A stretch of DNA of 64,000 nt from Zygnema cylindricum (Eukaryota > Streptophyta > Zygnematophyceae > Zygnematales > Zygnemataceae): assembly GCA_037447655.1 (NCBI GenBank), contig JBBHKE010000214.1, positions 17,919-81,918 on the forward strand, given 5' to 3'. How positions within the stretch are numbered: the first letter of the stretch is position 1; each line of letters starts with the position of its first letter. The notes below the pieces were generated by a model. The model was not told the origin of the DNA and searched no databases. It was given only the letters and a program-made list of their open reading frames with translations. This document shows positions 44,323 through 64,000 of the stretch, one piece after another. The translations under genes were made by a program, and so were the position numbers.

Positions 44323-44492
44323 TAGAAAACCTTACTCCAAATCTTGGTGGAGTTCCCGAAGGTGGACGTTTTACTTGTCCATTGACAATACCCTAGTATC
44401 GTTTTTCGCACAAAGCCTCCATTATCATAGCTTCCCAATAGATGAACCCAGATCCATTGAAGGTGGGCACCCTAAAGGGTGGGCCCATAACC
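44323..44492 (-). pseudogene. Copia gag start (family C), remnant
   Basis: From the primer site GGGCCCATAACC (44481-44492) the minus strand reads MGPPFRVPTFNGSGFIYWEA, then IVNGQVKRPPSGTPPRFGVR, the N-terminal part of the same gag family as A, B, E1 and E2. It is cut at 44323 by the F-type LTR. A stop (TAG) lies between. Confidence 0.8.
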
Positions 44493-45375: not shown

Positions 45376-46790
45376 GGTTAGTAAGAAGGGTAAAGGGCTT
45401 GCCATAGAGATAATGTCGGAAATGCACAATACCCCAGACTGCGGCGAGGCACTCCCCATCATAACTACTGTAATTTGACTCCGCTTGATTGTTGCTCCAA
45501 ATGGCATAAGCCACCACATTTTCCTCACCTGTGAGTTCACGCTGAGTTAGGATAGCTGCAATACCGGGCTTACCAAAGTCCGTCTTCAGGCAAAATGGCA
45601 ATTTATGATTTGGGGAACGAAGAATAGGAGCGGTGGACAATGCGTCCTTTAATCCCTGAAATGCCTCGATCTGGGAGGGTCCCAACGTGAACGAAACCGA
45701 CTTCCTCAAGTGTTCATTCAGTGGAGATGCAAGTGTGCTGAAACTAGGAACAAACCGTCGGTAAAAATTTGCTAACCCCAGTAATGAAGCTGATCCTATC
45801 TGTTGGGGCCGGGAGTTTACTGATTGCTTCCACTTTGTCTTCTAACGGAGTAATTCCCTCGGATGAAATAAAGTGCCGCCTTCGGCCCCGCAAGTGCATT
45901 TGGCAAGATGACATTTGAGTCCTACCTTTTTTAATTCCTTCAATACCCACTCTAAATACACTACATGTTCCTCTATAGAGGCTGAAGCGATGATTAGATC
46001 GTTGATATAGCAACGGGGAAACTTACATCCCCCCAAGACTGAGTCCATGACTTTCTAGAATACCGTCGGTGCAATTTTCTGTCCAAAGGGCATAATCGCC
46101 CGTTCCCAACGTCCGTCACTACCCCTAAATGCGGTCTTGTGTCGATCTTTTTCCTCTATTTCGATTTGATTAAATCCTTGTCGCACATCTAGGATGCTGA
46201 AATATTTAGCTCCTCCAACATGATCAAAAATATCCTCTACCAACGGCATTGGATGTGGGTCTTAGATTGTACGTGAATTCAGTTCCCGATAGTCCCCACA
46301 TGGCATTGGATGTTGGTCATGGATTGTACGTGAATTTAGTTTTCGATAGCCCCGACACATGCGACATTCTTTAAAATTCCCCTCTGCTTCTTTTTTACGA
46401 GGCATGACGGTAGGCGCCACAAAGGTGGAATCGGATCTATAAATCAAATCTGCCTCTTCTAATTCGGCGTAAAGTTTGTCTACAGATTCCCATTCAGTTT
46501 CTGATAGACGATGCTTCGGCTTAAATATGGGTCGGTCATCTTTCAAGTCAATAGACATTCTGTAAGTGGTGTGTCGACCTAAAACTTTCATGGAGAAAAC
46601 GAACGTGTCTACGTTTTGGTTTATAACTTAATCTAAAAGTTCGTGTTTCTGTTTTGTTGGCCCTTTTCCGAATTTCCATGTCGGTTTTTCAGATGTGTTG
46701 ATAGTCATGGCTTCCATGGCCTGTGCAACTGTTAGCTGCTTATCCACTATTAACAAGTGTCCCAACTCATACTCGATTAGGAGCTAATGC
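45376..46790 (-). pseudogene. Ty3/gypsy pol fragment: protease end, RT, start of RNase H
   Basis: Minus-strand frames give LGHLLIVDKQLTVAQAMEAM, KVLGRHTTYRMSIDLKDD, the RT fingers RLSETEWESVDKLYAELEEA, FSILDVRQGFNQIEIEEKDR (motif A), MPFGQKIAPTVF, the catalytic block CYINDLIIAS (YxDD changed to YIND, so inactive), then the RT thumb, FCLKTDFGKPGIAAILTQRE and VVAYAIWSNNQAESNYSSYDGECLA (RNase H). It ends at TLLTNPL. Several frameshifts; no integrase or gag. The lineage differs from element G. No methyltransferase is seen next to it. Confidence 0.88.
46247..46360. repeat. 56-bp tandem duplication inside the gypsy RT
   Basis: GGCATTGGATGTGGGTC at 46247 and GGCATTGGATGTTGGTC at 46303 begin two similar units. 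They duplicate the RT segment CGDYRELNSRTI..PMP. Confidence 0.9.
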
Positions 46791-47150
46791 AAACAACTTA
46801 CTGCATGATGCCAATTTTTAGATGGAAATGCAACAGTCTAGTGTGGTGATGCCAGTACCGCTACCTGAAATCTATCAGCTGTGTATGTTCGGAGAGACCA
46901 ACTCATGTGACTTGGTTCCAAAAAATCATAAATATTACGATCTGTGTCAGACTTAGCAAAGAAAGGGAAAAAGGAGAGCTGAAATATTGTACTCGAAGAG
47001 AAGGTGAGGACATCGATGTTGTGTGTTTAAATGGTGTATACCCCCCCCAGCTGATTGTGACAGATGGTTTTGTGCGTATCCACTATCTGCGAACCCCATG
47101 CCCAAGACAAATGACACTGATTAGGGATCAATGCCACGACTAAGTAAGGT
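46791..47150. other. Unclassified DNA, no gene seen
   Basis: It lies between the gypsy fragment and the LTR of element F. A short plus-strand frame at 46907-47143 resembles nothing I know. Confidence 0.4.
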
Positions 47151-48250
47151 GCACTGCTGCCTCTCGGTGAGTCCCGGAGAAACGGTGGTGCCTGAGATGA
47201 AATGTAAAAGATGTTCTCGTTCTACAACAGTAGGTTCTTCTTGTTGTAATTTATAAAATCTTTATTTCAGTAAATAGGGGTAAAAATAACTTAGATTATT
47301 TTTCTAAGTAGTCTACTGTAATACTTACCTTAATTAGCATTACAGTAGCAAAAAGTACAGTAGAGTGTATTGTACTTTTACAGGGACACGTGTCGGCAAA
47401 AGAACGTATGCAGGTTTTTCGGAGTGGCGCCGACAGTCAGCCACACGCGTCACGCAGTTGACGATTTGATTCACAAGATCGGACGAACGGGATCTGAACC
47501 GGGTATTATGGAAATAAATGGTAGAGTTCGACGCTACCATCGTCGATTGAATTTGTCCTAACGGACGCGATTCATCTGGGACCACAAGCGTGATTCACGA
47601 GGGATCATAAGCGTGATTCGCGTGGGACCACAAGTGACGAAGCACTCTGCTTCGTACTACACGACCACATTCGACTGGACTTTAGCTGTCACCGCTAACT
47701 AAGCATTTGGAACTTTTTGTGTACGGTTCAATTTCTGTAAATATTTGAATAACATTAGTTTGTCGTTTAGTGTGATATACAATAGTGTTATATTAATCAG
47801 GTTTTTAGAAAATAGTAATTAGGGTTTTTGAGGCACAGTGACGTATGGGTAGGATGCTTTGTGGTTACTCAGGATAATAACCGTAGTAACGGTTACCCAA
47901 ATTAGTGTAGATCAATAGATACACACTGTCAGTTTATCAATTAGGACATAGCCAATTTTGTAGTATCCAGTTTTGGGAATATGATTTTCTAATGGCAGTT
48001 TTTGGGAAACTTCTTGATATCATATCTTATGGTTTACTAAGTCATTTGGGCTACAATTTTGGGAATTGTTAGTTCACTGTATTTTGTAACACTCTATCAA
48101 ATTTGAAACTTATTGGGGTTCTGAGTCATATTTTGTGTCAGTTCAAAGTTGGCTGTTGAGTTTGTATTTTGATAGTTTCTGCTGTTTTTTCATGTCTACT
48201 TCTACTACTACTGCTGGTTCTCAGCCTGCAACGGTGGTTGTAAAACAACA
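47150..48250 (+). repeat. 5' LTR of element F (left border approximate)
   Basis: The right border is sure: AAAACAACA followed by the primer site GGTTATGGGCC at 48251. The left border is not; I find no second LTR copy in the window. The sequence holds an 11-bp inverted repeat CTACTGTAAT / ATTACAGTAG (about 47313-47350), the antisense tRNA-like module (47470-47565) and the gag start at 48192. Confidence 0.6.
47470..47565 (-). other. tRNA-like module with acceptor-like pairing in LTR F
   Basis: On the minus strand GGACAAA at one end pairs with TTCGTCC at the other (six of seven). GGTTCAGATCC fits the B box at ten of eleven positions, and TGGTAGCGTCG.. lies in the D-arm position. It is the only module in the window with an acceptor-like stem. 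Anticodon assignment is not possible by eye. Confidence 0.5.
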
Positions 48251-49150
48251 GGTTATGGGCCTTTTGTCAAGAATTCCTATCTTCAATGGCCAAAAGTATG
48301 CGTACTGGGCGGCGATGGTTGAATCGTCGTTTGAAACTGCTGACTTATTGGGGGTCTTGGATGGCTCCCTTGATGAAACAGATCCAACTTGGGCAAAAAA
48401 GAATTCAATGGCAAAAAATAATCTGATTCTTAGTATTTCACAAAATTTGGTAATGTCTCGAATGAAAATGAAGAAGGCGAGGAGATTTGGACATCACTAA
48501 AATCCGCTTTTGAGAAAGTGAATGTTCAAGAGGAGTTGCTGGTGGCTGGAAAATTTTGGGGATACAAATACTTGGGGGGAACTATGGTCGAGCATTGTGA
48601 CAATTTTCGTGCCTTTATTGATGCTCACTCTTCTGCTCGGGGGTCATTTCCTGAGTTTCATCAAGCAGCTCTACTTATTAGAGGTCTCCCTAGTAGCATG
48701 AAAGGTGTGTCTGTTCAATTAAAGAGTCATGATAAAGCTAGCTGGTCATTTCAGTTAGCCTATAATCTTATATTGGAGGAAGAGACTAATTCTAAAATCC
48801 TTGAAAGAGAAGGAATAGTTTAAGCATTTGCCACAGACTTTGACAAAAGAAATCAGATTAATAAAAACAGGAGTTAATTTAACCAGATGCAAAACCAGTT
48901 TAATCAGAGTTAGAATAGGTCATCTACTACTACTTGTTTCTATTGTTCTGAAAAGGGTCATAGATACACGTACTGTCCTAAACTGAAAAAGGCTAATGAA
49001 ACAGGTTTATACAGGCCAAGTTGGCAGCAAAGCCAGTAACACAAAGGCTTTTCTGGAAATCCTTCCCGTGGAAATGCTCTTTTCTCAGCTTCTGCAACTA
49101 ATGCAGATGAGTCTTTAAGCTTCAATGAGCAAGAGGAGGCGGAGCTCTTT
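48192..49150 (+). pseudogene. Copia gag of element F
   Basis: The ATG at 48192 is inside the LTR and gives MSTSTTTAGSQPATVVVKQQ. The frame crosses the primer site (VMGLLSRIPIFNG) and reads QKYAYWAAMVESSFE, GVLDGSLDETDPTW, a typical copia Gag N-terminal (UBN2-like) pattern. A frameshift near 48480 leads to EVWTSLKSAFEKVNVQEELL-like sequence and LIRGLPSSMKGV, then LILEEETN. A CCHC knuckle CFYCSEKGHRYTYC lies near 48.94-48.98 kb. Stops occur after GIV and near 48.88 and 49.04 kb. Confidence 0.85.
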
Positions 49151-49153
49151 GCT

Positions 49154-51187
49154 ATGGCGGCTGCAATGGAGGGTCCAAAAGATGCAGGATGGATCATGGA
49201 CACGGGAGCGTCTGCCCATATGTGCTGGAACAAAGCGGCTTTTGCAAATCTGCAGCAAACATCTCCAAGGAGTATTTACTATGCTTGTGGCATGAGTGTT
49301 CAAAACTCAACTCAGGGTTATGTATCTTTGATGGTAGATGTGGGGGGAAATTCGGTAGAGAGAACCCTTCACAATGTTTTGTATGTTCTAGAATTTAAGA
49401 AAAAAATATTTTCTACATCATTAGTGGAGAGCAAAGGCTTTAAAGTTGTTATGAAAGGAGGGAGACAGGTGGTTAGCAACAAAGGGAAAGTAGCAGTAAC
49501 AGGAACTAAAGATGCTAGCAAAATGTAGCGGATGGACATGGCTGAATATAAAGAAAATGATGTTCTCTACTCCAGTGTCCAATCTGACAATGAGTTGTGG
49601 CATAAAAAATTAGGACATATAAATTATGATAGTCTTAAGAAAATGGTGAATTTGGGAAAAATCGAGGGAGTTTCTCTTAGTTATCATCCTATAAAATCAT
49701 GTGATGGTTGTTATTTGGCAAGATTCACAAATTACCATTTCCACAGGAAACAGACCACAGATCGGAGAAAGTTCTGTAGCTAATACACTTTGATGTTCTC
49801 GGTCCTTCACAAGTGGCTTCAGCTGCAGGCGTCCACTATATGGTTACATTCCCACATGACTACTCGAGGTACACTAAAGTCTACTTCATGCAACATAAGA
49901 GTGAAGTGTTCACTCACTTCAAACACTAAAAAAGGTGGGCGGAAAAACTTCATGGAGTTCCAATCTTGGCGTTGAGATCGAACAATGGGGGAGAATACAC
50001 ATCAAAGGAATTCGAATATATTCTCATTCAAAAAGGTATTAGTCACAATCTTACTTTTCCATATACACCGGAACAGAATGGTATTTCTGAAAGATTAAAC
50101 AAGACAGTGACAGAGAGTGCTCGGTCCATGCTTGCAGATAAAGGGCTAGATTTGAAATTCTGGGCTGAAGCATTGAATGTGTTGTTTATATTAAGAACAA
50201 AATTGCTTCTAGATCTGTTAGCACCACACCTTATGAGTCTTGGACATGAGAGAAACTTGATGTTAGCCACTTTAAAATCTTTGGCTGCAAGTGTTTTTGT
50301 TCTACATACTTCACAAGATAGATGGAAAATGGAGGCTAAGGGCTTACCAAGAATTTTTATGGGGTATGATGATAATGCAAAAGGATATAAAGTTTTTGTA
50401 TTTGAAAAAAAAAAGTGATTATTTCTACGAATATCCAGATTAAAGATGAACAGGATTCAGTTGACCTTTTAAAATGTCAAATCAGCCGGCAAATGAAAAG
50501 CAAGAATATGTCATTTTTGTCACCATACGCAGCGAGACTACTTTCCACCGGCAAGTGGACACCTCTTCCTTCAGTTCCTCTGGTGCCTTTACAGGATGCT
50601 TCACCACAAGCTACGCCTCAGGTGGAAAGAACTACTAGAGACTATGTACTAGATCAAGTTTACGGTTCACACTAAACAGAAAAATCAGAAGTTGCCGACG
50701 ATCTCAGTCTCAGAATTTTCGGGGGGAAAGAGATCTAGCAGCCGTCTACAAGCAAGCTCTCACTTTGATTTTTCTGGAGCTACAGATGAGCCTCTTACGA
50801 TCCAGGAGGGCCTTGTCATCACCTGAGAGAAATCAATTGATCGAGGCGGCAGACGATAAAATGAAGTCTATTAGGGAGGCACAGACATGGGAGCTAGTGG
50901 ATCTTCCTTCGGGTAGGAAAGCCATGGCAACAAATGGGTATTCAAGGTGAAGCTGAACCCGGACAACACCATCGAAAGGTATAAGGCCACACTAGTGGCT
51001 AAGGGGTATAACAAAAAATAAGGTATTGACTTTGAGGAAACCTTCTCTTTAGTTGTCAGATTTCCCACTGTCAGAATTTTGCTAAGTCTAGCAGCTATAG
51101 AGAATATGGAAATACAAACCAAATGGATGTTAAAACGGCCTTTTTGCGTGGAGAGTGAGAAGAAAACCATTTATATGAAACAACCTG
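49154..51187 (+). pseudogene. Copia pol of element F: protease, integrase, first part of RT
   Basis: The protease has WIMDTGASAHMCWNKAAF with an intact Asp-Thr-Gly. Then come the GAG-pre-integrase region (ELWHKKLGHINYDSLKKM, CDGCYLARFTNYHF), a decayed integrase core, LRSNNGGEYTSKEFEYI, TPEQNGISERLNKTVTESAR (catalytic Glu present), MGYDDNAKGYKVF, and RT start MKSIREAQTWELVDLPSGRKA, VKLNPDNTIERYKA, FEETFSLVVRFPTVRILLSLAA. Many stops and frameshifts. The frame is cut at 51187 by element G inside YMKQP(EGYV). Confidence 0.87.
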
Positions 51188-51473
51188 TGTCGAGCGTGCC
51201 AGAGAAACACAAGGGAAGGGCCCTAATGCCCGGAATGGCCGGGTCCTCGGCGTCCAGCAAAGAACCCACCAATGCGAATGCTTCCCATAATAATGATAAT
51301 GCCCACTGCTGACCCCATCCCTCCCAACAGGAATGCATGCACAGATACGAGAGGCACAAGGATTGGGAATAGGGATGAGTGCATGGGGAAGCGAAAAGAT
51401 CTCCCCTCCCCTTTATTTTCCCTATGAAGCCGGGGAAAGGGGTTGGGTTCTTAGTAATCAGGTCGGTGCTCCA
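51188..51473 (-). repeat. Candidate 3' LTR of element G
   Basis: 286 bp, TGTCGAGCGTGCC to CGGTGCTCCA on the plus strand, next to a polypurine tract. On the element strand it contains GGGAAAATAAAGGGG, a possible TATA region. The partner LTR near 63.6 kb was not recognised, so the border at 51473 rests on the tract and the TG..CA ends only. Confidence 0.6.
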
Positions 51474-51488
51474 ATTTCCCCCCCTCTT
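51474..51488 (-). other. Polypurine tract of element G
   Basis: ATTTCCCCCCCTCTT on the plus strand, AAGAGGGGGGGAAAT on the element strand, directly before TGGAGCACCG. Confidence 0.75.
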
Positions 51489-51524
51489 AGTCAATCGTGA
51501 CTAAGAAAAAGAAACAGTTACCCG

Positions 51525-52870
51525 CCCAATTCACAGTTCCCGCAGAACCATGGACTGGGGGATGGAGGGTGTGGTTCCCATGAGGAGGGTAGACAAGCTG
51601 GATGCCAGTACTGCCCGCACTGATGGCAGACTAAGATTTCGTGCTGCTGGGAGGACAAGTTGCAGGATGATGAACAGGAAGGAGGATCTGCAAAGTAAGT
51701 CAAATGGAAAGTGGGGTCGTCTTCTAATCCTCGGAGGTGACAAGGGGCCACATTGATTTGATTCTCTTTAATTCTTCGCCCATCTTTCCCCTCCAAAGTC
51801 AGAACTCCCTTATTTGAAACTTCCACCACTTTTAAGATTACCCGCCCGGCAGAAATGTCAAGCGTGTCCTTTTTCTGTTGCATGCGATACACAAAGTCTC
51901 CCGGCATAAATCGTCGCTGTCGGGGCACATAATCTCCGCTCCGGCGATGGGAATACCACAATTGATCCCGGTGTTGTGCCGCCTGTAAATTCCCCATGGC
52001 GAGAGGCATCTCCCGGTGGAAAATTTTGGCACAGTCAGCGATCAGTTTTTCGACAGTTCCCTTGTCATCCATTGCCAGAGGACCACCGCTTGGGCAGAGG
52101 CAGCCCTGGGCAGAATAGGATGCCATCCAAATAAAATGAAGTAAGGGTTGTAGGAGTGAAGAGAAGCCTGTCTGCTGAATCACTATCCCATGGCAATCCA
52201 AGGCACCCTTCTGTCCCACTCTCCAACTGCATATTTTCGTAGTGACCGCTTCACTGTCTGTACGCACCTTTCGGCCAAACCGTCGGCTTGGGGGTGGTCG
52301 CGGCTGGTAAGTCGATGGTCGATGAGGCATTTCTCCCAAAGATTGGTAAATTCTTTGGCGAATTCCGATCCCTCGTCGGTCAGAACCTCTGCTGGCGCCC
52401 CAAACTGTGACAGGACTCTCTGTAGAAAGGTGTCGGAAATGAACTTGGACTCCTTTCGGGGCAGGACCACAAGCTCTATCTATTTTGAGAAATGTTCAAT
52501 CATGACCAGAACGAAACGATTCCCACGTCTGCTGGTCAGAAGAGGTCCCAAAAGATCCAAAGACCACCGATAAAACATTCCCATGATGGGAAGAGAATGG
52601 AGCTCAGTCCCGCCCTTTTTGTCAAAAGCTGCCTTAACTCGATCGCAGGAAGAGCAAGTCTGTACAATTCGGTTGACTTGGGCCCGCAACCTGTGCCACC
52701 AGTAAGATCCTGTAACCAAGGAAGTGGTTCGCTTCTGTCCGAAGTGTCCACATTGTTTATGGAAATTGGTAATCAGAGTTTCTCGATCTGAGGGAGGAGG
52801 AACCACTCTCCTAGTACCGTCTGTCCATTTCCGGAGGAGCACTCCTCGGTCCCACTCATACGCCGCCATC
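51525..52870 (-). pseudogene. Integrase of element G with C-terminal PHD finger
   Basis: Read on the minus strand: an HHCC zinc domain (..NFHKQCGHFGQKRT.., VQTCSSC), the integrase core with RWSLDLLGPL (first Asp), a TAG replacing Trp in FSKWIELVV (52478), VLTDEGSEFAKEF (second Asp), GLAERCVQTVKRSL (Glu), then after a frameshift near 52.19 kb the C-terminal part RRFMPGDFVYRMQQKKDTLD and VLTLEGKDGRRIKENQINV. The last 50 residues form a cysteine-rich module: C222, C226, C238, C241, H246, C249, C266 and C269 of the terminal open frame (51530-51680), with WHPAC and PWFCGNC. This C4HC3 pattern fits a PHD finger, which usually binds histone H3 tails. Many gypsy integrases have a chromodomain in this place. 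The stop is TAA at about 51525. Confidence 0.85.
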
Positions 52871-53480
52871 GGGTCTGAACACGGGATAATTGAATTCCAG
52901 CCAATTGGGGAAGAGGGGATCCCTGCTGAATAGATTGTAGAGCTTCAGAGTCATTCCAAATGTCTTTCCGTCCGGCTCCCATGGGTGCTTGCCCCTCAAC
53001 ATCTACTGCAAAAGTTGACAATTCCCCCTCAGATGGAAGAAGCCAAATGAAGGCGGAAGATGCTCGAATGAGTCCCAAACTGATTTCCGGATCCTCGTCG
53101 TGCCGAGCCCCGGTGGAATCCAGGGTACAAGGATCGGGGTTTCGGCTCAGTCCGTCGGCATTCCCATGAATTTCCCCTGTCCGGTGGACAATGTTGAAAT
53201 CATATTCCTGCAAGATAAGAACGAATCTGGCGAGTTTGCCGGTCAACTTACTATTTTCCATGATCCACTTCAAGGGTTGGTGATCGGTCATTAGTGTGAA
53301 ATGGACCCCGTACAAATAAGGTCTGAAATGCTTGATGGCCCAAACCGCGGCAAGAAGCGTCCCATGATAACTTCTATAATTTCCCTCAGCTCGGTTATTG
53401 CTCCGGCTGGCGTAAGCCGCCATATACTCGGCACCTCCGTCGTCAACTTGAGCCAAAACAGCTCCCAATCCAAACCTGCT
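52871..53480 (-). pseudogene. RNase H of element G
   Basis: After a frameshift near 53.48 kb the minus strand reads MGAVLAQVDDGGAEYMAAYASRS, EGNYRSYHGTLLAAVWAIKHFRPYLYG and LMTDHQPLKWIMENSKLTGKLARFV, then DFNIVHRTGEIHGNADGLSRNP. These are the standard gypsy RNase H and tether motifs with the acidic residues (Glu of the NYRSYHGTLLA region changed to His, Asp of MTDHQ, Asp of NADGLSR). The domain would remove the RNA template. Its separation from RT by one frameshift is probably decay. Confidence 0.9.
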
Positions 53481-56017
53481 CCAATCATGTAAAAGAGGAA
53501 AGGTCTCTGGTGATCAGGCATCCGGAGCACTGGGTGCTGCTTCAGGGCATCCTTCAAGAACTGGAAAGCGATCTGCTGTTCCTCGGCCCACTGCCATTCT
53601 TGATCTTTCCGTAATAGCTTATTGAGGGGCTGGGCGTGACTACTGAACTCGGGAATAAACCTGCGATAGTAGTTAGCCAGGCCGAGAAAGGTGCGCAAGG
53701 CAGAAATGTCCTGCGGGGGAGGAAGAGCGTCGAGGGCTGCAACCTTCACCATATGGGGACCCAATGTCCCAGGAGTTACCTCATGTCCGAGGTAAATGAT
53801 TTTCTGCACCCCAAAAATACCCTTGCCCGGGTGACATTTCAAGCCCGCTGCTTGAAGAGCCCGGAGAACGATCTGGATATGCTCCAGGTGTTCTTCAAAG
53901 GTCTTGGAAAATATTATCACATCGTCGATGTAGCATTTGGCACAATCGATTCCTCGGAGCGCTTCGTCCATGGCCCGTTGGAACTTTGCTGGTGCATTCT
54001 TCAGTCCGAAAGGCATGTAAATCCACTCATAAAGTCTGGATCCGGCCCAGAATGCCGTTCTCTCCCGGTGTTTTGGTTCCATGGCAATCTGGTGGAAACC
54101 ATTCTTCATGTCCAGTGTGGAGAAAATAGTGGCCCCAGCGAGAGAGTCGAATATCTCTTCCGGAGTTGGCATTGGGTACCGGTCAGGAATGGTGGCCGTG
54201 TTCAACATGCGGTAGTCCCCACACATTCGGAAGTCCACAGTTTTCCCGGATGAATCCTTCTTAGGAGGGAGAACTGTGGGGGAAGCAAACCCATGGAGTC
54301 CGGTACTTTCCTGAACCAACCCTGCGTCCACCAAAGTTTGAACCTTTTCAGTAATAAACTCTTTCTCCTTGAAGCTGAGAGGATATTGTTTCTGCCAAAC
54401 CGTTGCGGTTTCGTCGATCAAATCTATCCGAAAGGGGGTTCCTTTGTAGATTCCGACATCTGTTTCGGACCATGAGAAAACCTGAGCGTTTCTAGCCAAG
54501 AGTTCTGTTAGCTGTTCTTTCTGCTGAGGGTCCAGCTGCTCCCCCAGAGTCCAGTCCATTTTCCCCGGCTCAACCGCAGCCCAAGCTTCCGGTGGTTTCC
54601 CCCAGAGGTTGATGTCGAATTCTAGCCCAACCTGTGGATCTGTCTCTATTCCTCCAGATAATACTTTACTGCTGACAACTCCCGCTAAGTTATCTCCTTC
54701 TGAGCTCCTGTTCCCCCCCACTGAAGGAACTCTCTGGTGTAGAATTTTTCTCTTTTCTCTCCCCCCCTCAAGCTGCAAAGTTGCTTGCATGGACAGTAAC
54801 TGTGGAGCTTGAAGGTAATTTTTGCGCGAATCTGGAGCGCGGATACTGGAATAGGCAAGAGCATGCTTTACAACCCATGTAATGGCATTTAAATCCATGC
54901 TTTGCCCTATGAGGCTGCACCTCTGTTGGTCTGAAATACCTGGTGCTGCCGTTGTCTCCGGTTGAAATCCCATTGCCTGTTCTCGTTCCGATATTGTTGG
55001 TGTTGTCCAAAGTCTTTCCTTGCTGTCAAAAATCATTCCAGCCGCCCCTTTCCGGTAGGCGTGACTGTGAGGAAAAGATACCAACGTGGGGAGTGCTCGA
55101 CGTGGGTATCCGGGGATATTGCATTGGAAGAAAGGTGTACGATCCGGCTTCGTTACAGGTGTCGCTTTTCTCCCTTTTCCAAGTATTTGTTGTACTGAAA
55201 TCTGGGGGTCGGGGGTTTGTGTCTCCAACAGTTGTCGGAGGACTGGAAGAGGGATCATATTGGTCCAATATGCCCGGAGTCTGTGCGCTCGAGATCCCAT
55301 TTGAGCCGCGTCAAAAACCAAGGGAGCTCCCAGGATACGTGTTACCTGCTTCCAACTTTCTGCAACCTGCTTTCTTTTATCATCTCCCGGGTGGACATTC
55401 TCCAGAATGTACCCCACTGGTGTGTCATGGAGTTGCTGAATCCATGATATCAATGTAATCATCTGATAGAAGGTTCCACTTCGGTGATCCTGATGCCCTT
55501 TTCCTCGTGTTCCTAGAGAGTATCCCTGACAAGGCCATCCCGCCACAACCATATCTACTCTTCCCAGACTAGCCAAATGAGGTGCCATTATATTATCCAC
55601 ATTCTGGGGAATACTCCGGTGAGCTTTGGAAATGGAAGACACTAGAAGTTGTTGAGGATATAAGCGGTGCAGCTGATGTAGGCGGTATTCGCTGACAGCT
55701 CGCGCTTCCGGTGAAATTTCCACTGCCGTGTAGGACTCCACTCGATACCCTGCCTTTAAAACTGCCTCCAAATCAGAACTGATTCCTGAAAATAAAGATA
55801 AAATCCGAAGTCCGGAGTCGGGGACTGTCAATGACACCACTTGTCGATTGAAGTCTTCGCTCCCAGTCTGGTTTTTGAAAACATCTGACTGTATCGTCGA
55901 ATCTGTTTTCGGTAATAGTAAGGCCGAGAATGTTTGATCCACTCCCCGCCGGAGTTTCGCCACCTGCAATAATCTGTCTGTGTATTCTTTTTCCCACCGC
56001 TTGGAAATCGGGAATTG
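53291..56017 (-). CDS. DNA cytosine methyltransferase fused to gypsy reverse transcriptase
   Basis: One open frame follows the protease after a single TAG (56018-56020) and runs about 908 codons; residues here count from codon 55969. Residues 54-375 are a C5 methyltransferase: motif I LRILSLFSGISSDLEAV, motif IV GWPCQGYS with catalytic Cys147, motif VI ILENV (189-192), motif VIII SRAHRLRAYW (226-235), motif IX LWTTPTISEREQAMGF, motif X RCSLIGQSMDLNAITWVV. The SLFSGI start and HRLRAYW pattern point to the DRM/DNMT3 type rather than MET1, a weak inference. After a linker, residues ~450-870 are RT: LVQESTGLHGFASPTVL, DFRMCGDYRMLN, FSTLDMKNGFHQIAM, MPFGLKNAPAKFQRAM and catalytic CYIDDVIIFS (679-688). 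The expected role is methylation of cytosine 5-carbons and cDNA synthesis. RT and methyltransferase motifs are all intact; the frame ends in a frameshift at RNase H. Confidence 0.92.
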   Translation of the reverse strand, partial: QFPISKRWEKEYTDRLLQVAKLRRGVDQTFSALLLPKTDSTIQSDVFKNQTGSEDFNRQVVSLTVPDSGLRILSLFSGISSDLEAVLKAGYRVESYTAVEISPEARAVSEYRLHQLHRLYPQQLLVSSISKAHRSIPQNVDNIMAPHLASLGRVDMVVAGWPCQGYSLGTRGKGHQDHRSGTFYQMITLISWIQQLHDTPVGYILENVHPGDDKRKQVAESWKQVTRILGAPLVFDAAQMGSRAHRLRAYWTNMIPLPVLRQLLETQTPDPQISVQQILGKGRKATPVTKPDRTPFFQCNIPGYPRRALPTLVSFPHSHAYRKGAAGMIFDSKERLWTTPTISEREQAMGFQPETTAAPGISDQQRCSLIGQSMDLNAITWVVKHALAYSSIRAPDSRKNYLQAPQLLSMQATLQLEGGREKRKILHQRVPSVGGNRSSEGDNLAGVVSSKVLSGGIETDPQVGLEFDINLWGKPPEAWAAVEPGKMDWTLGEQLDPQQKEQLTELLARNAQVFSWSETDVGIYKGTPFRIDLIDETATVWQKQYPLSFKEKEFITEKVQTLVDAGLVQESTGLHGFASPTVLPPKKDSSGKTVDFRMCGDYRMLNTATIPDRYPMPTPEEIFDSLAGATIFSTLDMKNGFHQIAMEPKHRERTAFWAGSRLYEWIYMPFGLKNAPAKFQRAMDEALRGIDCAKCYIDDVIIFSKTFEEHLEHIQIVLRALQAAGLKCHPGKGIFGVQKIIYLGHEVTPGTLGPHMVKVAALDALPPPQDISALRTFLGLANYYRRFIPEFSSHAQPLNKLLRKDQEWQWAEEQQIAFQFLKDALKQHPVLRMPDHQRPFLFYMIGAGLDWELFWLKLTTEVPSIWRLTPAGAITELREIIEVIMGRFLPRFGPSSISDLICTGSISH

Positions 56018-56763
56018 CTAGATGTCTTCGGCAATATCTGTGGAACTGTCAAACAGCTCCGCCGGAGAGGTTGTAGAATACACGGGGTAACAGCCAGACA
56101 CCGGAACATTGGTCTTTCCCCGGTTCCATAAATCCAAAGGAACCACAACTTTGGTTCCTTCGGGATTTCCTGGGTCCCGAACTGTACATTGCTCCTTCCA
56201 AACACTCAAACTCATATTCATGCGGGTCCAAGTTGTCATTCCCAACAGAATTTCAAACTGATTCCCTTCTACCACTAAGAAAATAAGTCCAATTTTCACC
56301 TTTTGTCCCTCATCATCTGAGAATTCAATGTCCATGGCTTTGATGATCCCATGGACTGGCTGTTTTCGCTGCTGACTGTGCTCAAGCAGATGTTACTCGG
56401 GCAGATCTGGGGTCCGAGTTCTTCCGGCATTTTTTGCAATGCAGAAGTAGTTATGAGGTTGGGAAGGGCTTCCGTATCCACCACAGCGTCCTAATACCCG
56501 CCGTACCCATTCAGTTTTAAATTCCCGGTCCGGTTTAGAATGAGTGCCACGGAAAAAGTTTTGTAGTCCCTATCCGCCATAGGGGTCTTAGGATCTGAAG
56601 ACAAGTATACCGCCGTGGGTGGTGTCACCCTGTCGACTTTGTCTTTTCCATAATGGATCTCTTCTCCCAAGGCCTGAATGAGGATCTCTTCGGGCAGATT
56701 ATGGGAGGAAGCAAGGGTCTTGACATGGGTCAAGGCATAAGGCATCAAATGCCGGACCAGCAT
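56018..56763 (-). pseudogene. Protease region of element G
   Basis: From 56763: MLVRHLMPYALTHVKTLA, VDRVTPPTAVYLSSDPKTPM, then a TAG, DAVVDTEALPNLITTSAL (the catalytic region; Asp-Thr-Gly appears as Asp-Thr-Glu, a GGA to GAA type change), a frameshift near 56.34 kb, and MDIEFSDDEGQKVKIGLIF, FEILLGMTTWTRMNM (retropepsin C-terminal ILLG). It cleaves the polyprotein in active relatives. With Glu for Gly it is probably dead. The TAG at 56018 separates it from the methyltransferase in the same frame. Confidence 0.75.
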
Positions 56764-57853
56764 AAAAGCAGGCTTGGAGGAATGGAGCGGAGCTTATGGG
56801 GAGGATGTCGGCGAATTTTGTTCCTGACCGGTTCTATCTCTTCGTTGCCATCAGTTTCAGAACCGGAATCGGGTACGGGTGGAGTTTTTGGTGCATCTTC
56901 GTCCGGGCGTTCGGCCATAAACCGTTCAAACCAATCCTGTGTACTTTGGTTGTCCTCTTCCAGTGATTTTGTCTCCTGCTGCAGTTTCTCTTTCTTGTAA
57001 TTTTCGAAACCGGGAGGCAGTCTAGGTTGAGGAGGAAGAGGAGGGGGTTGAGTGGGCTTGATCCCAAGGCCTATGTCACTGTTCAGAATGACTGCCCTGG
57101 GCGTGAAAGACAACGGCCCGGTGGCCTTCCGGTTGTGGTCCTTTTGGCCCATTTTCCGCCGGTCTCTCCTTTGATCCGAGGTTGAGGAGCGGAGTTGTCT
57201 ACGACCATCTCCCACTCCAACATTCCATGCTCCGTGCAGGAAACTGTTTGCATGGTGGGCATTTGGGGGTTCCAAATCCCAGCCCATCAAATCATCGTCA
57301 TTAACACCCGATTTGCTTTGAAGCTCAAGCTCCGCTAGCTTTTGTAGTAACTCTTGCTTCTGTCTTTGAAGTCATTGCGCTCCCGTAAGAGGAGCAGGCC
57401 GGTAAGTCGACCCCAAACGAGGTGCAGCGAATTCGGCAGCCATGGCAGCCATCTGCTGACTCTGCTGTTGGATTATTATCTCTGGGGTAAGTCTTGCGGG
57501 AGCACTCGTTAATGGTTCTGGCGTCACTGGTGTAGGCAGCACTGGGCGCTCCCAAGGATAAAGGAGTTGTAGGGGAAGAGGGTTAACGGCAGTCTCTCCT
57601 CCTCCCGTGAACAAAGCGAATTGCATCATTTCCTTAGGTATCCCGTTCTTCTGAAAACATTGTCCCTCCTTGTGCCTTATAAAACCACAGGCTTCGCATT
57701 TGTGACCTCAGTGGTATACTTGCTTTGAATCTCGTTGGAGATCTGAGCATCGTCAAACTTTGGCAGTTTGATTTGCCACAGTTGGGACTGGGACATTTTC
57801 GAAGGTTCGCTCCGGGGAGTGGGTAGGTAATTGTTCTTTGGTGTTCTCTCCCC
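56745..57853 (-). pseudogene. Gag C-terminal part and linker of element G, with second zinc knuckle
   Basis: Just after the solo LTR the minus strand gives a CCHC knuckle CEACGFIRHKEGQC (57660-57705), then MMQFALFTGGGETAVNPLPL, a Gln- and Pro-rich stretch, a TGA replacing Arg, and a basic and acidic linker (RRDRRKMGQKDHN, PDSGSETDGNEEIEPV) up to 56745. Frame breaks lie near 57.73 kb and before the protease. The family of the linker is unknown to me. Confidence 0.72.
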
Positions 57854-59048
57854 TGTTGGAATTCAAGTATTTTGTAGGTCTAGAGATTGCAAAATAAAAA
57901 GCAAAATAGTAGATATTGACAGCCTGCCTCTAACTCCTCCTCAAGTCCCCACACTTGTCGCAGTCACTGAAGACTGGAGGAGGAGTTAGCCATGGCTGTC
58001 TGTGCTGTCTAGAGGGAGACAGACAGTTGTTTTATAGGGGGTTTTTTCTCTAAAAGGTAGTTTTGACACAGTCAGGATTTGATCCTGGTGCCTGCCATTT
58101 GTCAAAACCGCAATAGCCGGTAGTCTTATCCAAATAGTCTAAATTGTATTTGATATTACTGGGTATGATATTTATTTAAATAGTTACAATAAGACTAATT
58201 CATTTAACTAGAACTATATGCATACTGCATAGAAACAGTTGTGTAAAGTACGACGTACGATACGGATACGAAATAAATACCGCGCAGTTTGTTTGACGCC
58301 GGAAAGAATACCGCGCAGGTATTTATGACGGCCACGATTGAAATCCAAAATTGATCGGACGACCGCGAAGGATGCCGAGATCGCGGCGTACGATTTTGGC
58401 GGTTTACGATCACCGCCACATTGAGTGATACGTGGTAACACTACATAAGATTACGGCAACTCCAGAGATTACGGGAACATATCCGGATATGACACGTGTC
58501 GACATTTTGGCCATGTCGTACAATGGCCGTACATAAAGTACACCGGCACCTGTACTGTAGTGTACGACACAGTAATTTGATTGGTGCGGTACTTCAGTAG
58601 ATAGAGTTTTAGAGAGGGAATAGGACTTAGATAAATTTTCGGTAGGCAGCTGCCTCTCCCAGAAAGCACTTTGTATAAATGGCAAACTTTGGCCAACAAT
58701 ATCTATCAATTTACTTGACCATTTTCAGTGATTTTTTTTGCTGCGGACTCAGAGGAGTCCAGGCTACACAGGGGTGTAGTCGGTCAGAGTTTTTGTCTGC
58801 CAGGGTGGCTGCATTTCTAAGGCAAAGTCAAAGTAGGTGAATGTGTCCAAATCTCATATTCTAACTTTGGATTCTGTGGTGGAACTGAGCACACAGAAAG
58901 TGTTATTTCACAGGGGTGAATCTATATTGGGGTTTTGACTATCAAGGGGTCAGTCACTTGGTTATATATCAACTTGGAGTCGGCACTATCTAGATTAGCT
59001 TCTTTTGGACTGCATACTCTGAGGGCCAATGTAGGTATCAGAGTTTCA
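57854..59048 (+). mobile_element. Solo LTR D2 inserted in gag of element G
   Basis: TGTTGGAATTCAAG to TCAGAGTTTCA, 1,195 bp, related to D1. The flanks TCCCC (57849-57853) and CCCCC (59049-59053) differ at one base. It holds the U3 hairpin (57920-57998, stem CTAACTCCTCCTC / GAGGAGGAGTTAG), an antisense tRNA-like module (58062-58140, AGGATCAAATCCT on the minus strand) and a leader ATG at 59029 followed by TAG where relatives have GAG. The gag of G continues on both sides. Confidence 0.88.
57920..57998. other. U3 hairpin of LTR D2
   Basis: CAGCCTGCCTCTAACTCCTC pairs with GGAGGAGTTAGCCATGGCTG around a loop containing ACTTGTCGCAGTCACTGA. The stem differs from A and E1, yet pairing is kept. Confidence 0.75.
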
Positions 59049-62000
59049 CCCCCCTGCTTTGAGCCTTTCTTCATGCTGCTTCTGGCTCCTTTCTGAACGC
59101 TCTACCTCCCATTCTTTCAACTTGGGGGCTAGCTCCGGTTTGAGTTTCCTGCTGCAGCGTTTCCATCCATGTCCTGGTTGTTGGCAATTTAGGCAATTGT
59201 ACAATATTACCCATTCGTCTGCTCCAATTGCGGGTTCGAGTCTGCTGTCCACAACTTGCTTCCCTTTAAGCTTCCGCAAAGCTTGAAGTTCCGCTTGTTC
59301 TTCCCCACTTAAGGAAGTTTTCTGGCGAATCTTGCAATTTTCACTCTTGCCTTGTCGGTCATGGCCTTTTTCCTCGCCTCACTGTGAACGAAGTGGTCGT
59401 ATAACTTCATGGCCACCAGTGAGATGTCCTTGGCAGAGGGATTTCTGTCCTGGATTGCTTGTCTTGCAATCCACTTATGCAAGGCAGTCTGCCCTGTTGG
59501 TCGGAAGGAATTACAGACAACGATGAAATACTTTGTGGCCATTGTATGAAGATCAATGGTCAACAGCTTAGTTTTCTGGCACAGGCTCGATAGGTTGTTG
59601 AAGAGAGTTTGGGGAGTCTCGTTCTGCAAGCATCGGAATTCCGTGAATTCCTTCATGGCCGATTCGTTCCTCTCGGTGTAGAGGAGTCGCCAGATATTGA
59701 GAAGGGTGGTGCAAAGGGTGGGATTGGCCACCATGCGTGTAGCTGCTTGAGCTGCCTGAATAGCTTGCAGCTGGTTTACATAGGCCCTTCCTTAGGCCTG
59801 CAGCTTCATATCATCGGTGAATGTGGCTGTCACAGGGGTGGCCGCCGCTGTAGCCAAGTCACCCTCCGCTTGTAAAATGGTCGCATCAAGAGCCGGATCA
59901 GATATCTTGATGCTAGGAGCTATCAAAAGAGATTGACGCTCCTTATAATCTGCCAACGCCCCTCCAGAGAGGTAGTTAACCATCATGGGAAAGAGGGTCG
60001 TCTTGAAGTCATCCGACATCGCTTCTCCCCTCTACTTATTGATTTCTGATTGGGTAAACGATTTCCAAAACAACTCGAAATCTGAGAAAGCGATCCCCGA
60101 GCTGTCCCCTGTAAATTTTCGAATGACTCCCATTTCTTTCTCTTCTTTCGCTGTTTAGGTGAACTGAGGAAAGGCCGGTGGGTCTGACAAACTGTGCCAG
60201 CGAAGTGACTCCTTTGTCCTCTTCCCCGGGATCGGAACCTCCTTCCCTCCGGTAGGAGGTGCTGCTCCGCTAGGCGCGGATACTCCTCCCGCAGAGGAAG
60301 TACCAACCCCTGAAAGGATGGCTGGAGGAAGGGTATTCCTCACGGGAAGAATTCCTGGCCCCCGGTGAGCAGAGGGTATCTGCGTCTGAAGACTGGTATG
60401 GCCTGGTGTCGCAGAAGGAAGGGCCCACTCCCCTTTGTCCACTCCCCGATATCCACGGGAATACCTTTCGTCCCTAAGAACTTCCTCCTCTGAAGGAATG
60501 TGGATTCGAGGTCTGTTCAAAGGTTGATCTTTGAGCTGGGATGGAGAAGAAGACGACGAAGGCCGGTTCGGAGGGGAAGGTGTTCCCCTCCGGAAAGGGG
60601 TCTGTTTCCGGGACCGTCTTCGAGAGGTTTCAGGCGGTGGAGTTCCGGAACTGGAGGAGGGGGAACGCCTGTGAGGAGGGGAGTATACGTCGTACTTATA
60701 GGGTAAATTCAGCGGACCTGGGGACCCCCGGTCGGCTCCAGTAAGAGAAACGGAAGGAGATGGAGAGGAGATGGGATTGTCCCGGGGTTTTGCTACCGGG
60801 GCCTGGGCGTGGGAAGTAGGAGGACGAGGAGGGAAAAGAGGAGGATCAGGGGACAGTCTGGGTGGAGGAGAAGGAGGGGTAGACGGCCTCAAGGGGATGT
60901 GAATTCTTTCGTCCGGTCGTAACTCCACTAAGGCCTCAACAGCTTCAGAAACCTCCACCGAAACAAAAGTAGGCTCTTCCCGCGGAGCCGCTTCGAGTTC
61001 AGACGGTAAATCTGCACCCAAACCCCCAATATTAGGTCTTGTGTCTGCCCCCTCTTCCCGCTGAAGAGGAGGTTCCCGACCAATCTCAGAAGGAGGAGCC
61101 TGGGGTGGAGCTCCGGGCGGGGTTTCCGCTACTGGTGTTGGAGGGATCCGCCCACTGAGGATCCCACTGGTCCTCCGCTTAGCTTCCCGGATAAGATTCA
61201 ATTCCTGCTCCCACAACTTTCTCCGTTCTTCCTCCAATGCTTCCCAATCCACTATAACGGTTCCAGTCCCCGCCGTAGCCGAGCCCTGGGATTTTAAAAT
61301 TTCCACTAGTTCCTTAGCCCTTTCCACGACTCCGGTCAGATCAGCTATCCCTGCTCCTAGAATTTCTGGATCTGTAGGCCTGGCTCGAAACAATCCCTCG
61401 GAAAACTCTTCTGGTTCGGTTTCCGGGACCTCTGGGTCAGTGGGTTCGGGTCGCCAGAACCCTCCATCAGGGCGGACCCGGGGTGCTGGAGGGGTAGATC
61501 TCTCGGTGGAGACTAGCACTGGAGTTGGGAAAGGTTCTTCCTTGGGAATAGGTGCAAATCTACCCTTGCTATCCCTGTGGTCAAACTTCTTCCCCCTCCC
61601 CGGCTCTGGAGCCCCTCAATCTTTGCCATCAGCTCTACTACGAGACCTCGTAGTCGGGCGCCCTCGGGACGGTCGGCTTGCTGCAGTGTCTTGGGAAGAA
61701 GATGGAGGAGGGCGAGAAGGAGGAGCCCTCCTAGGCCTTTCCTGCAAGGACTGTGAGGAACCACTCTCTGAAGAGCTGCTTAGAATCTCCACTACCCCTC
61801 CCACTGGTTTAACCACCCGAGGTCGATCCGACCGAGACACTCTTTGCACCAACTCCTGCTTAACCTTCAGTTCATGAAGATCTGAAGAGCAAGGAGTTCC
61901 TTTCGACCAGGGCGGCTGGGATCCGTCAAAACCGCAGGGTCAATCTGAATTTCGGCCCTGGGAATCTTTGATCTAGTGTGAAGCCCGACCTCCGAAGAGG

Positions 62001-62426
62001 ACCCAAAAGGGGCTCCCGCAGAGCTTGCCTTTTTGGCCTGGCCCGGAGTGACACTCGGTTTCTTTCTTGAGCCTGTGCTCTGGACTCCTTTCTTTCCTCG
62101 GCAAAGAATCTAGAGGCCTCCGTCAAGGAGGGAAAATGTTCAGGAGTGAGGCTAGGAGGAGATAGGGGCGAAGTTTGCGGTTCGGGCGGTTTTGTAGGAG
62201 TCTCAACTCTAATAGGCTCAGGCATCATCCCCTGGAGAAACCGCTCTACGTTTGCAGACGAGGTGAAAGGGACAGATTCTTGGGGAACCTGTGACTCTTC
62301 CATTGGTGCCACCGCTTCTTGATTCGCCCGCTCTTGCAGCCTGGCATCGGAGAGATTCTTATCTTGAGCTTCGCCTCCCCGCATGATGACAAAGGTCTCG
62401 AAAGAAGAAGAAACGAAAGTAAACAA
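59049..62426 (-). pseudogene. Gag of element G, N-terminal and central parts
   Basis: The start is probably ATG 62384 (MRGGEAQDKNL); an upstream ATG at 62426 is also in frame. A long Pro/Ser/Arg-rich, low-complexity N-terminal region (62.4-60.15 kb, with a stop at 61926 and frameshifts) precedes a structured part at 59.3-60.0 kb (LCTTLLNIWRLLYTERN, FRCLQNETPQTLFNNLSSL, FIVVCNSFRPTGQTALHKW) that looks like a gypsy capsid helix set. A CCHC knuckle CLNCQQPGHGWKRC lies at about 59.17 kb. The 454-codon frame at 60155-61519 is the longest open piece. It would form the particle and bind RNA. The very long disordered N-terminus is unusual for gypsy Gag. Confidence 0.72.
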
Positions 62427-63686
62427 AACTCGCTTACGTCAAGAGAGAGCTTCTAAAGTGGAAAGCTCCTATCCCCTCTAATCCGAAAGAGACAGGTGGC
62501 TTTTCAGTACTGTACTTATTCACGGGAAGTCTATAGCATTTGTTCCCTCAAAACCCACGGTTTCGATACAAGGAAGTGGCAGTTTTACTCCGGGGATTCC
62601 ACGCCAAAGCAAAAGAAACTACAAGCGAATACACCAATGCACTACCACGTGGACACATAGAAATAAATAGGAATGGCAGTTTCAGATTTAACAATATCAC
62701 CTTGACCACAGAAATAAAATATAAGATGGAAGATATAAAAGATGGCGAAGCAAGCTTAACATACCCCGACAATTTACGAAGACAAAGAGACAAGGGCGAA
62801 CTCTCTCCCGATGGTAGTGTAAATAGGTATGGCACTCCTTCAACCCTCGGTGTCCGCAGTTCGGAACCGACCAGACTCTTCTCAGTTTCAAGCAGCGAAA
62901 GATCCCAAAATCACCCAAAGGGACGATAATGCCAACTACCAGCCCGAACTATGATTCCCACAATGGACAAATCCGAAACAAAGATGGCAATAGAGTCAAA
63001 CAAAACAAAGATTATTCCAAAAGAAAGTTTGTTGGATTTTCTGAGGGTTTTCACACGAGACAGTACTGAAAAGCAACCTGTCTCCTTCGGCCCCAAGTGC
63101 CTTATACAGCAAAAGCTTGTCCAGTTTCAGGTCCAAAAGTCAAACCTACGCTATTAGCCAATGAGCGGCCAGCAAGTGCAACCGAACTGACATAAGACAA
63201 AATAATGTGTACTACACTTGGGGCAAAAAGTTAGACCTCTGACTACGGCTAGATCCGCGGCCGCAAGTTATTATTTGTTCCATAGTTTGTAAGACAAAGT
63301 ACTAAAAGGACACGGAAGTGCCAAGCTTTGACTTATGTAATTAATTAACCACTGGTCAACTGAATCTGAACTGAATTGCTACAGACAGCTAACAGCAAAA
63401 TCTAGATTACAGTCCGGAAGTCTACGTGGCAATCCACAATGTACCCTCCACTAGGGCTGGTGGAAGCTAGTACTATGTGACGGAACTGCGATCTTTTAGA
63501 CGGTAGAACTTTGTCGTCCAGCCTCCGTTAGGCACGAAACAAAGTGCGTCTTGTTCAGTAGAGGAAATGCATTAATCCTTCCGGCAGGTTGTACGGGCTT
63601 CTCTGAAATTTGAGAATAGTACGGGTCGGAAGGTACGGAAATCCTCGGTAATATAGAAGTGTGCATGAAAAGCACTCGAGCTTGAC
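62427..63686. other. 5' leader and presumed 5' LTR region of element G
   Basis: No protein is supported here. The right end GAGCTTGACA next to ACCTG marks the insertion border. The sequence does not match the candidate 3' LTR at 51188-51473 by eye, and I found no sure primer-binding site. An inverted repeat at 62487-63085 suggests a further insertion in this stretch. Confidence 0.5.
62487..63085. repeat. Inverted-repeat-bounded segment in the leader of element G
   Basis: CCGAAAGAGACAGGTGGCTT with TTCAGTACTGT at the left is the inverse of ACAGTACTGAAAAGC with AACCTGTCTCCTTCGG at the right (about 30 bp, two mismatches). It could be a small TIR element or a fragment of LTR duplicated in inverse. 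No clear target duplication. Confidence 0.55.
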
Positions 63687-64000
63687 ACCTGAAATGTACG
63701 TTCAAAAGGGAAAGGAAGAATTAGTGTGTAAATTGATGAAATCTTTGTATGGGCTAAAACAAGCCCCTCATCAGTGGAATTTGAAGTTAGATGAGTTTTT
63801 GACTGGGCTGGGATTTAAGAGAATTAGCTCAGATCATTCTGTACATGTCTTACAAGGGGAGGATGGGATACTATACATTGCTGTATATGTGGATGACTTA
63901 TTATTAATCAGTAAGTCAATGGATGAAATAAACCGCATTAAAGCGACTTTAAGGTCTAGGTTCGAGATGAAGGACCTCGGTGAGGCCAAGTATATTTAGG
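63687..64000 (+). pseudogene. RT of copia element F, continued
   Basis: Picks up the frame broken at 51187: YVQKGKEELVCKLMKSLYG, APHQWNLKLDEFLTGLGF, then the catalytic block YIAVYVDDLLLISKS (YVDD intact) and RFEMKDLGEAKYI. A TAG or one-base loss occurs at the last codons of the window. Confidence 0.9.

Follow-up and report, generated by a model that had tools for sequence, protein, structure and literature searches.

The 64,000-nucleotide stretch of the Zygnema cylindricum genome analyzed here (contig JBBHKE010000214.1, positions 17,919 to 81,918; hereafter the window, to which all coordinates refer) contains a decayed copy of a multi-copy, once-active family of Ty3/gypsy long terminal repeat (LTR) retrotransposons, in which a DNMT3-type C5 cytosine methyltransferase (DNMT) is inserted between protease (PR) and reverse transcriptase (RT). 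DNMT and RT share one minus-strand open reading frame (ORF) at 53291-56017, which runs through 908 codons without a stop. An earlier reading of the sequence alone had described a frame of about 900 codons with a C5 methyltransferase followed by a gypsy RT, and Pfam reported both domains above cut-off: DNA_methylase on ORF residues 71-250 (E 5.3e-8) and RVT_1 on residues 585-747 (E 2.9e-28). The nearest PDB sequences were gypsy/Ty3-type RTs for the ORF and DNMT3A/B for its first part. The extent ascribed to the frame was correct in that all 908 codons are open, but the final ~55 residues are read out of frame, as seen in comparison with the open copy C1374, because RNase H (RH) carries on in a separate ORF at 52773-53513.

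The methyltransferase domain occupies positions 54833-55837 of the minus strand (ORF residues 61-395). With a search profile built from twelve related DNMT domains, DNMT3A ranked first (6e-25), followed at lower rank by chain 4onj (1.6e-10), HhaI (4.9e-9), DRM2 (2.7e-7) and DNMT2 (2.9e-7). The 4onj entry is named DNA methyltransferase and is presumably a plant DRM enzyme. An AlphaFold2 model of the domain reached a pLDDT of 90.5 and a pTM of 0.90, and all 50 rows listed by Foldseek for this model were DNMT3A, DNMT3B or DNMT3C, some of them together with DNMT3L (best E 4.7e-19; TMq 0.64-0.71). The domain is thus a DNMT3-type C5 methyltransferase, nearer to DNMT3 than to other C5 enzymes by profile and by Foldseek, and the prediction of a gypsy element with a C5 methyltransferase between protease and RT was borne out. 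An alignment of 16 sequences showed the methyltransferase motifs in the standard order I-IV-VI-VIII, followed by the C-terminal motifs. DRM methyltransferases have a rearranged motif order. The order found here is not rearranged, and a DRM-type identity was therefore rejected. The catalytic Cys, the Glu and the motif VIII His all fall within 36 columns that are invariant across the twelve relatives.

Copies of the element were sought in the whole host genome (352.8 Mb, 2689 contigs), which also contains phytochrome-family exons of plant-like appearance. At least 62 matches with the order DNMT-RT were found and merged into at least 50 copies, which is a lower bound because only 50 of the 5049 first-look candidates were scored. 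In the Pfam DNMT search of the genome, all of the 123 candidates scored among 782 were above cut-off. The 30 best-matching copies were compared with each other. Twenty-three of them were gap-free across at least 334 of the 335 residues of the DNMT domain; 25 carried at least one in-frame stop in that domain and a further one (L039) a frame break, leaving four (the window copy, L013, with L015, L022 and L040) free of both. The sequence-only reading had taken the intact methyltransferase beside broken PR, RH and integrase (IN) as a sign that the enzyme was kept functional longer. This argument was not supported by the comparison: since most of the 30 copies are decayed in the DNMT domain, the window copy is one of those in better condition. 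The domain residues C103, E146, H185, R186, R188 and G311 were kept in 29, 28, 30, 26, 24 and 27 of the 30 copies, respectively, and all six together in 16, decayed copies being included in the set. In C1374, the frame stays open over 1520 codons, from the DNMT through the PHD finger. A second, distinct DNMT-gypsy family is present at C1344 (L057, 89900-92600, 2701 bases); it also has the DNMT before the RT, its open frame is listed as 2395 amino acids, and it shares 38% identity with the window protein.

Ratios of nonsynonymous to synonymous substitution (dN/dS) were calculated by the NG86 method for those pairs among the 30 copies that shared over 200 codons and gave a finite dS. The values are to be read with the reservations that recent pairs include pseudogene decay, that the deepest dS values are near saturation and that the pairs are not independent. 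For the DNMT domain, the median dN/dS was 0.524 at dS below 0.1 (17 pairs), 0.391 (60 pairs), 0.229 (11 pairs) and 0.244 (14 pairs) in the next three bins, 0.166 at dS 0.5-0.8 (38 pairs), 0.132 at dS 0.8-1.5 (32 pairs) and 0.089 at dS above 1.5 (143 pairs). For the RT, the median dropped from 0.353 (28 pairs) to 0.034 (198 pairs). As far as codon comparisons can tell, this shows the DNMT domain to have been under purifying selection between lineages, although selection is not visible in the window copy itself. In the DNMT and RT domains, 74 of 110 in-frame stops fit a C-to-T or G-to-A change in CAG, CAA, CGA or TGG codons, and CAG-to-TAG accounted for 38 of these 74. The pattern would fit deamination of methylated cytosines as a possible source. 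As a separate observation, the RT stretch 53794-54394 was 98-100% identical to several copies (L039, L015, L047/L048), and identity was 89-96% over much of the DNMT and RNase H on either side. The copies are mosaics that probably arose by template switching or gene conversion.

The frame upstream of the ORF ends in a stop codon that is shared by nearly all copies. Stop contexts were collected from 31 loci, two of which (L023 and L041) gave none; among the remaining 29 copies, the in-frame stop directly 5' of the ORF was TAG in 28 and TAA in one, and the next codons were CAA in 28 and TTC in 27. In the window, this UAG lies at 56018-56020 (minus strand). The 21 bases past the stop had 159 exact matches in the genome, 147 of which were preceded by TAG; the reversed control gave 0 and 1. 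Synonymous identity after the stop was 0.86-1.00 for codons 1, 2, 4, 5, 6 and 7 and 0.40 for codon 3, and it ranged from 0.49 to 0.92 in other five-codon stretches, some of which are possibly misaligned. A readthrough context of the form UAG-CAR-YYA is known from tobamoviruses; UAG-CAA-UUC resembles it, differing in the last base. TAG as a sense codon was rejected, because the 1520 open codons of C1374 hold no other TAG, and conservation of the UAG across copies shows that the stop between PR and DNMT is not decay. The earlier claim of a broken protease therefore stands only in part: this copy does have one stop and one frame break inside its PR region (56018-56570, minus strand, compared with the PR frame of C1374), but the stop at the PR-DNMT boundary is the conserved UAG. 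Together with the exact 21-base downstream context, the conserved UAG suggests programmed readthrough.

Some observations weigh against a simple form of this reading. A putative stem-loop (55984-56015, minus strand) begins five bases past the U of the stop, and only 3 of 290 pair cells were broken over the 29 copies compared; the changes within it were all one-sided (21, none two-sided), and when five copies were folded singly, just one (L029) formed the whole hairpin, which the window copy failed to do. Alifold energies past the UAG were 3.0-5.2 standard deviations below those of column shuffles. A long RNA structure past the UAG was rejected, as nothing beyond the short hairpin with its one-sided changes underlies this signal. 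Moreover, the UAG is not general. It is absent from L057, in the stretch read, and from the relative P0004, which is open from gag to RT across the corresponding place. The place of the stop seems to differ among relatives, because the arrangements of P0004, of P0008 (a frame that joins protease to DNMT but lacks an RT) and of P0016 and P0144 (a DNMT protein and an RT protein, for which contigs of equal length are given) are not the same.

Two protein searches with DNMT queries returned 21 and 209 matches (120 of the latter listed), and an RT query returned 161 (120 listed), giving 257 proteins including the window's own. Among the first 140, the order RT-RH-DNMT-IN-PHD was seen in 79 and DNMT before RT in 7; many of the others were fragments. 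A PHD finger ends the polyprotein in many relatives. In a DNMT tree of 79 rows plus DNMT3A, the two layouts split at one branch (support 99/98). This tree was drawn from 138 usable domains, with every second row taken from P0023 on, and its lone outgroup was one DNMT3A fragment on a very long branch. The layouts likewise split at one branch in an RT tree (51 of 93; support 98/94) and in a 50-row DNMT tree with named streptophytes (100/99), in which Closterium and Marchantia grouped with PR-DNMT-RT and Haematococcus and Cymbomonas with RH-DNMT-IN. In both DNMT trees, P0005-P0009, P0013 and P0016, which have a DNMT without RT, were counted as PR-DNMT-RT by inference. A 73-row RT tree with insect and spider gypsies was made by a quick method with a midpoint root; RTs matched piecewise were dropped, and P0021 and P0199 were not part of it. 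Each of the 30 rows in which a DNMT is visible fell into one clade of 51 rows (SH-aLRT 99). Interspersed in this clade were 21 rows without a visible DNMT, mostly frames that start at or just before the RT; P0180 has 390 residues ahead of its RT and no DNMT. The trees place the DNMT-gypsies in one green-lineage clade with two layouts, PR-DNMT-RT and RH-DNMT-IN. Two points count against this placement or limit its reach: P0017, with its DNMT before the RT, adjoins RH-DNMT-IN rows in the quick RT tree, and the trees were drawn without host DNMT3 genes, which bears on the source of the capture.

With Pfam, the DNMT was confirmed above cut-off for P0002, for two proteins of Closterium and for both of Marchantia. 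Pfam did not report the DNMT of Haematococcus P0103 at E 1e-3; that assignment is based on 46% identity across 97% of the P0014 domain and on our own profile. In the liverwort Calypogeia fissa, a close RT (P0156) was seen in a frame that begins at the RT. A viral origin of the DNMT was considered as well: a scan of IMG/VR with a single DNMT protein found no relative, and with the profile it found 12 distant loci with 26-44% identity across short stretches.

By its RT the element is a gypsy, and by its repeat layout it is aberrant. Pol has the order PR-RT-RH-IN with a gypsy-type RT and a DDE integrase, the DNMT being inserted between PR and RT. Two like LTRs were not found at its ends, and no direct repeat of at least 60 bp was present in 44000-64000; the alignment of the two termini was matched by 18 of 100 shuffles in direct and 78 of 100 in inverted orientation. 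Ordinary LTRs were rejected for the window copy on these grounds and because other copies show its ends to be two different units, A and B. The copy at C1856 is arranged as A1-coding-B1-GC-A2-B2, and the window copy and C2026 as A-coding-B. In the window, A1 (62511-63687, minus strand, 90.3% identical to A1 of C1856) carries a TATAAG motif and the 5' self-priming arm described below, and B1 (51188-51477, minus strand, 94.8% identical to B1 of C1856) adjoins a polypurine tract, AAGAGGGGGGG (51478-51488, minus strand), which lies directly 5' of B and was read in the sequence; similar tracts were seen in C1856, C2026, C1374 and C544. The palindromic B-GC-A junction, GACA-GC-TGTC, in a 17-base form, occurred at 127 exact places in the genome and its reversed control at none. 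On the contigs covered by the 100 of these places that were listed, 42 copies could be checked; 14 of them were followed, on their own strand, by a junction 2.1-2.7 kb downstream, and four more by one at 6-8 kb.

A 31-bp inverted repeat may serve in priming. Its 5' arm, a putative self-primer (63060-63090, minus strand), lies within A about 16 bases past the start of TATAAG and was found in all six A1 copies examined. Its 3' arm, the putative primer-binding site (62483-62513, minus strand), lies directly past A. In all six of these A1 copies the arms pair across 27-33 bases, with energies between -33.8 and -51.6 kcal/mol, the window duplex having the lowest value (-51.6 kcal/mol); as expected, such pairing was not found in the two A2 copies. 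In C544, both arms have one extra base, a matching change in length. Gypsy elements of the Tf1/sushi group self-prime, the 5' end of their RNA being complementary to a site just past the 5' LTR. The present element would be alike, its putative self-primer being complementary to a site just past the 5' repeat A, and differs in the length of the arms, 27-33 bases as against 11 nt in Tf1. Tf1 is not known to carry a DNMT.

Flanks were compared for five copies that could be read at both ends. Exact 4-bp duplications, within the 4-6 bp expected of Ty3/gypsy elements, flank the window copy (CCTG at 51184-51187 and 63688-63691) and the C1856 copy (TGTT/TGTT). A DIRS identity was rejected on account of the DDE integrase in Pol and these target-site duplications; no search was aimed at a tyrosine recombinase. 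In C1856, the two LTR ends meet cleanly at the A-B junction, and one A-B junction of C544 retains G residues of the polypurine tract, as would be expected of two-LTR circles. The simplest reading is that the LTR is B-GC-A, that the RNA would be self-primed and that integrase would cut circles at the LTR palindrome. Several copies do not fit it readily. C2026 has the flanks GCAC/ACAC, alike in three of four bases; C1374 is without a duplication; and the duplications GAAC and AGCT of C544 match only if an inversion is assumed. In addition, C1374 (L046/L053) and the solo unit of C544 (L043/L054) share one deleted A-B junction, and such sharing between two loci is unpredicted by the circle model. 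At C544 (L043/L044/L054), two copies in opposite orientation, one of them a solo AB unit, carry each other's flanks GAAC and AGCT. This pattern looks as it would after an inversion through recombination between A repeats.

The observed domains and their order, the copy number, the selection, the conserved UAG, the repeat structure and the duplications probably have a joint explanation. A Ty3/gypsy lineage spanning green algae and early land plants would have taken up a DNMT3-type methyltransferase, probably once, and retained it under selection. Gag-PR would end at the UAG, and occasional readthrough would yield a long Pol that starts with the DNMT and continues with RT, RNase H, integrase and PHD finger; because this product holds both enzymes, the DNMT would be packaged with the RT. 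The RNA was probably primed by its own 5' end folding back, and the integrase probably cuts circular DNA at the palindrome within the LTR, so that a one-LTR circle would give A-coding-B and a two-LTR circle A-coding-B-GC-A-B, each with 4-bp duplications. Most likely, the DNMT would act on double-stranded cDNA newly made from the element itself, or on the circle formed from it, and methylate it before or at integration; self-methylation of the cDNA is put forward as a hypothesis only. More tentatively, we consider it possible that there was one capture before the chlorophyte-streptophyte split, a lineage reaching from prasinophytes to liverworts, one move of the DNMT within Pol, dosing by the UAG in some families, and self-primed circles cut at the LTR.

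Other explanations were weighed against this one. A host methyltransferase gene or retrocopy might have landed by chance in a dead gypsy copy, and the window copy, broken and nested among other elements, would by itself allow such a one-off fusion. The sequence-only reading had proposed that other copies be sought and dN/dS be determined, and both results speak against it: at least 50 copies in the genome have the same order, which recurs in separate contigs and in named organisms, 23 of 30 are gap-free over almost the whole domain, and the DNMT dN/dS is low (median 0.166 at dS 0.5-0.8). The copy number in the host genome led us to reject this fusion, whose chance we regard as negligible. It is harder to dismiss that related gypsy elements captured related DNMT3 genes on two occasions, instead of one capture being followed by a move. 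The position of the DNMT differs between the layout groups, and the trees lack the host DNMT3 genes that could exclude separate captures; on the other hand, RT and DNMT trees each split the layouts at one branch, and the 30 rows with a visible DNMT share one RT clade apart from ordinary gypsies. We consider two captures conceivable but rather doubtful.

The target of the enzyme could also be another one. Supplied in trans or guided by the PHD finger, the DNMT might methylate the host genome and shape chromatin at insertion sites. That the polyprotein of many relatives ends in a PHD finger would suit such a role, as would the PDB neighbours of the P0014 version of this finger (KDM5, UHRF1, BAZ2 and CHD4). 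The place of the DNMT beside the RT inside Pol is as packaging would have it, and the PHD finger of the window is diverged (best PDB match E 1.9e-5), so a host target seems unlikely to us. Still less probable is a structural or nucleic acid-binding, non-catalytic role, for which the negative result with the Klebsormidium version in yeast could be cited (PMC5890265): of the 30 copies, decayed ones included, 29 retain the catalytic Cys, 28 the Glu and 30 the motif VIII His, and all three are invariant over the twelve relatives.

Retrotransposon-borne DNMT3 as such has been known since 2018. The kinship with the elements of de Mendoza et al. (PMC5890265) to which the sequence-only reading had pointed is supported: here, too, the DNMT lies in the Pol ORF, is multi-copy and has been under purifying selection. 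The carriers of DNMT3 described in that paper are a Klebsormidium gypsy, whose repeats are DIRS-like, and DIRS elements of Symbiodinium. In its account, the Symbiodinium DIRS-borne DNMT3 methylated CG in yeast; the Klebsormidium gypsy DNMT gave no methylation there, which speaks against an active enzyme in our element, and the authors judged the assay inconclusive. KnitGypsy-Dnmt3 of Klebsormidium nitens resembles the present element, by description, in its gypsy Pol with a DNMT3-type domain, its A-coding-B-A-B repeats, purifying selection and a streptophyte algal host; in the text examined, neither its domain order nor a PHD finger, a stop codon or a priming site is given. The host genomes differ in size, 353 Mb here and 104 Mb for K. 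nitens (PMC11096116). SymbioDIRS-Dnmt3 (PMC5890265) is alike in having the DNMT3-type domain in the same ORF as the RT and differs in its tyrosine recombinase and unrelated RT class, in place of which a DDE integrase and 4-bp duplications are found here.

Among our relatives, Haematococcus lacustris P0101/P0103 and Cymbomonas tetramitiformis P0022 have a related DNMT and RT, and P0103 also an integrase and a PHD finger; their DNMT is located past RNase H. Marchantia polymorpha Mp_2g26090 (P0167) and MARPO_0091s0058 (P0199) have the DNMT directly upstream of the RT in one ORF, as here, but belong to a land plant and form their own branch of the DNMT tree (100/100, length 0.81). A 2019 paper states that methylase-bearing transposons are absent from land plants, such as tracheophytes (PMC6338049), and the Marchantia copies speak against this statement at least for liverworts. 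A 2025 survey mentions streptophyte and dinoflagellate retrotransposons with a DNMT3 inside (PMC12344493). The main text of PMC5890265 contains none of the terms PHD, protease, chlorophyte, Closterium, Marchantia and liverwort, and literature searches over titles and the starts of abstracts, with subscription journals mostly uncovered, returned nothing on DNMT-gypsies of Marchantia, Closterium or chlorophytes. The new points are the conserved UAG, the putative self-priming arms, the inside-out repeats and the extension of the clade to a land plant. DNA methylation classically acts against transposons, and a lineage that has kept a methyltransferase of its own under selection across green algae and into a land plant suggests that self-methylation can pay. 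The question becomes open to experiment in hosts amenable to culture and transformation, Marchantia foremost, and the repeat structure offers a concrete model of how DIRS-like repeats may arise in a gypsy element.

The whole insertion spans 12.5 kb (51188-63687, minus strand), has the ends TGTC...GACA and interrupts the RT gene of a copia element on the plus strand, the reading frame of which breaks off after 51187 and picks up again at 63688. From 5' to 3', its order is A, gag (interrupted), protease, UAG, DNMT, RT, RNase H, integrase, PHD finger, polypurine tract and B. The gag region (59046-62438, minus strand), compared with the gag ORFs of C1374, consists of several broken frames with a zinc-knuckle remnant at 59046-59378. 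Gag is interrupted by a later insertion, a repeat of about 1.1 kb (57920-59013) with ~69-76% identity to several other repeats of the window, possibly a solo LTR or a fragment. A second zinc-knuckle part of gag (57372-57707, minus strand) holds the motif CEACGFIRHKEGQCFQKNG, also present in the C1374 copy and in P0004. The protease stretch 56018-56392 had no Pfam match. All remaining Pol domains are on the minus strand: the gypsy RT with YIDD (53464-54547, as far as the frame break; Pfam and PDB), RNase H, frame-shifted relative to the RT (52773-53513; RT_RNaseH, E 1.9e-29), the DDE integrase in several broken frames (51680-52944; Integrase_H2C2, E 4e-16; rve, E 2.2e-4, below cut-off) and the C-terminal PHD finger (51519-51680), recognized by alignment with relatives and slightly below the Pfam cut-off (E 2e-4). 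Within 1-51000 of the window, several of nine frames of at least 170 amino acids read as pieces of copia gag or pol, in both orientations and variably broken.

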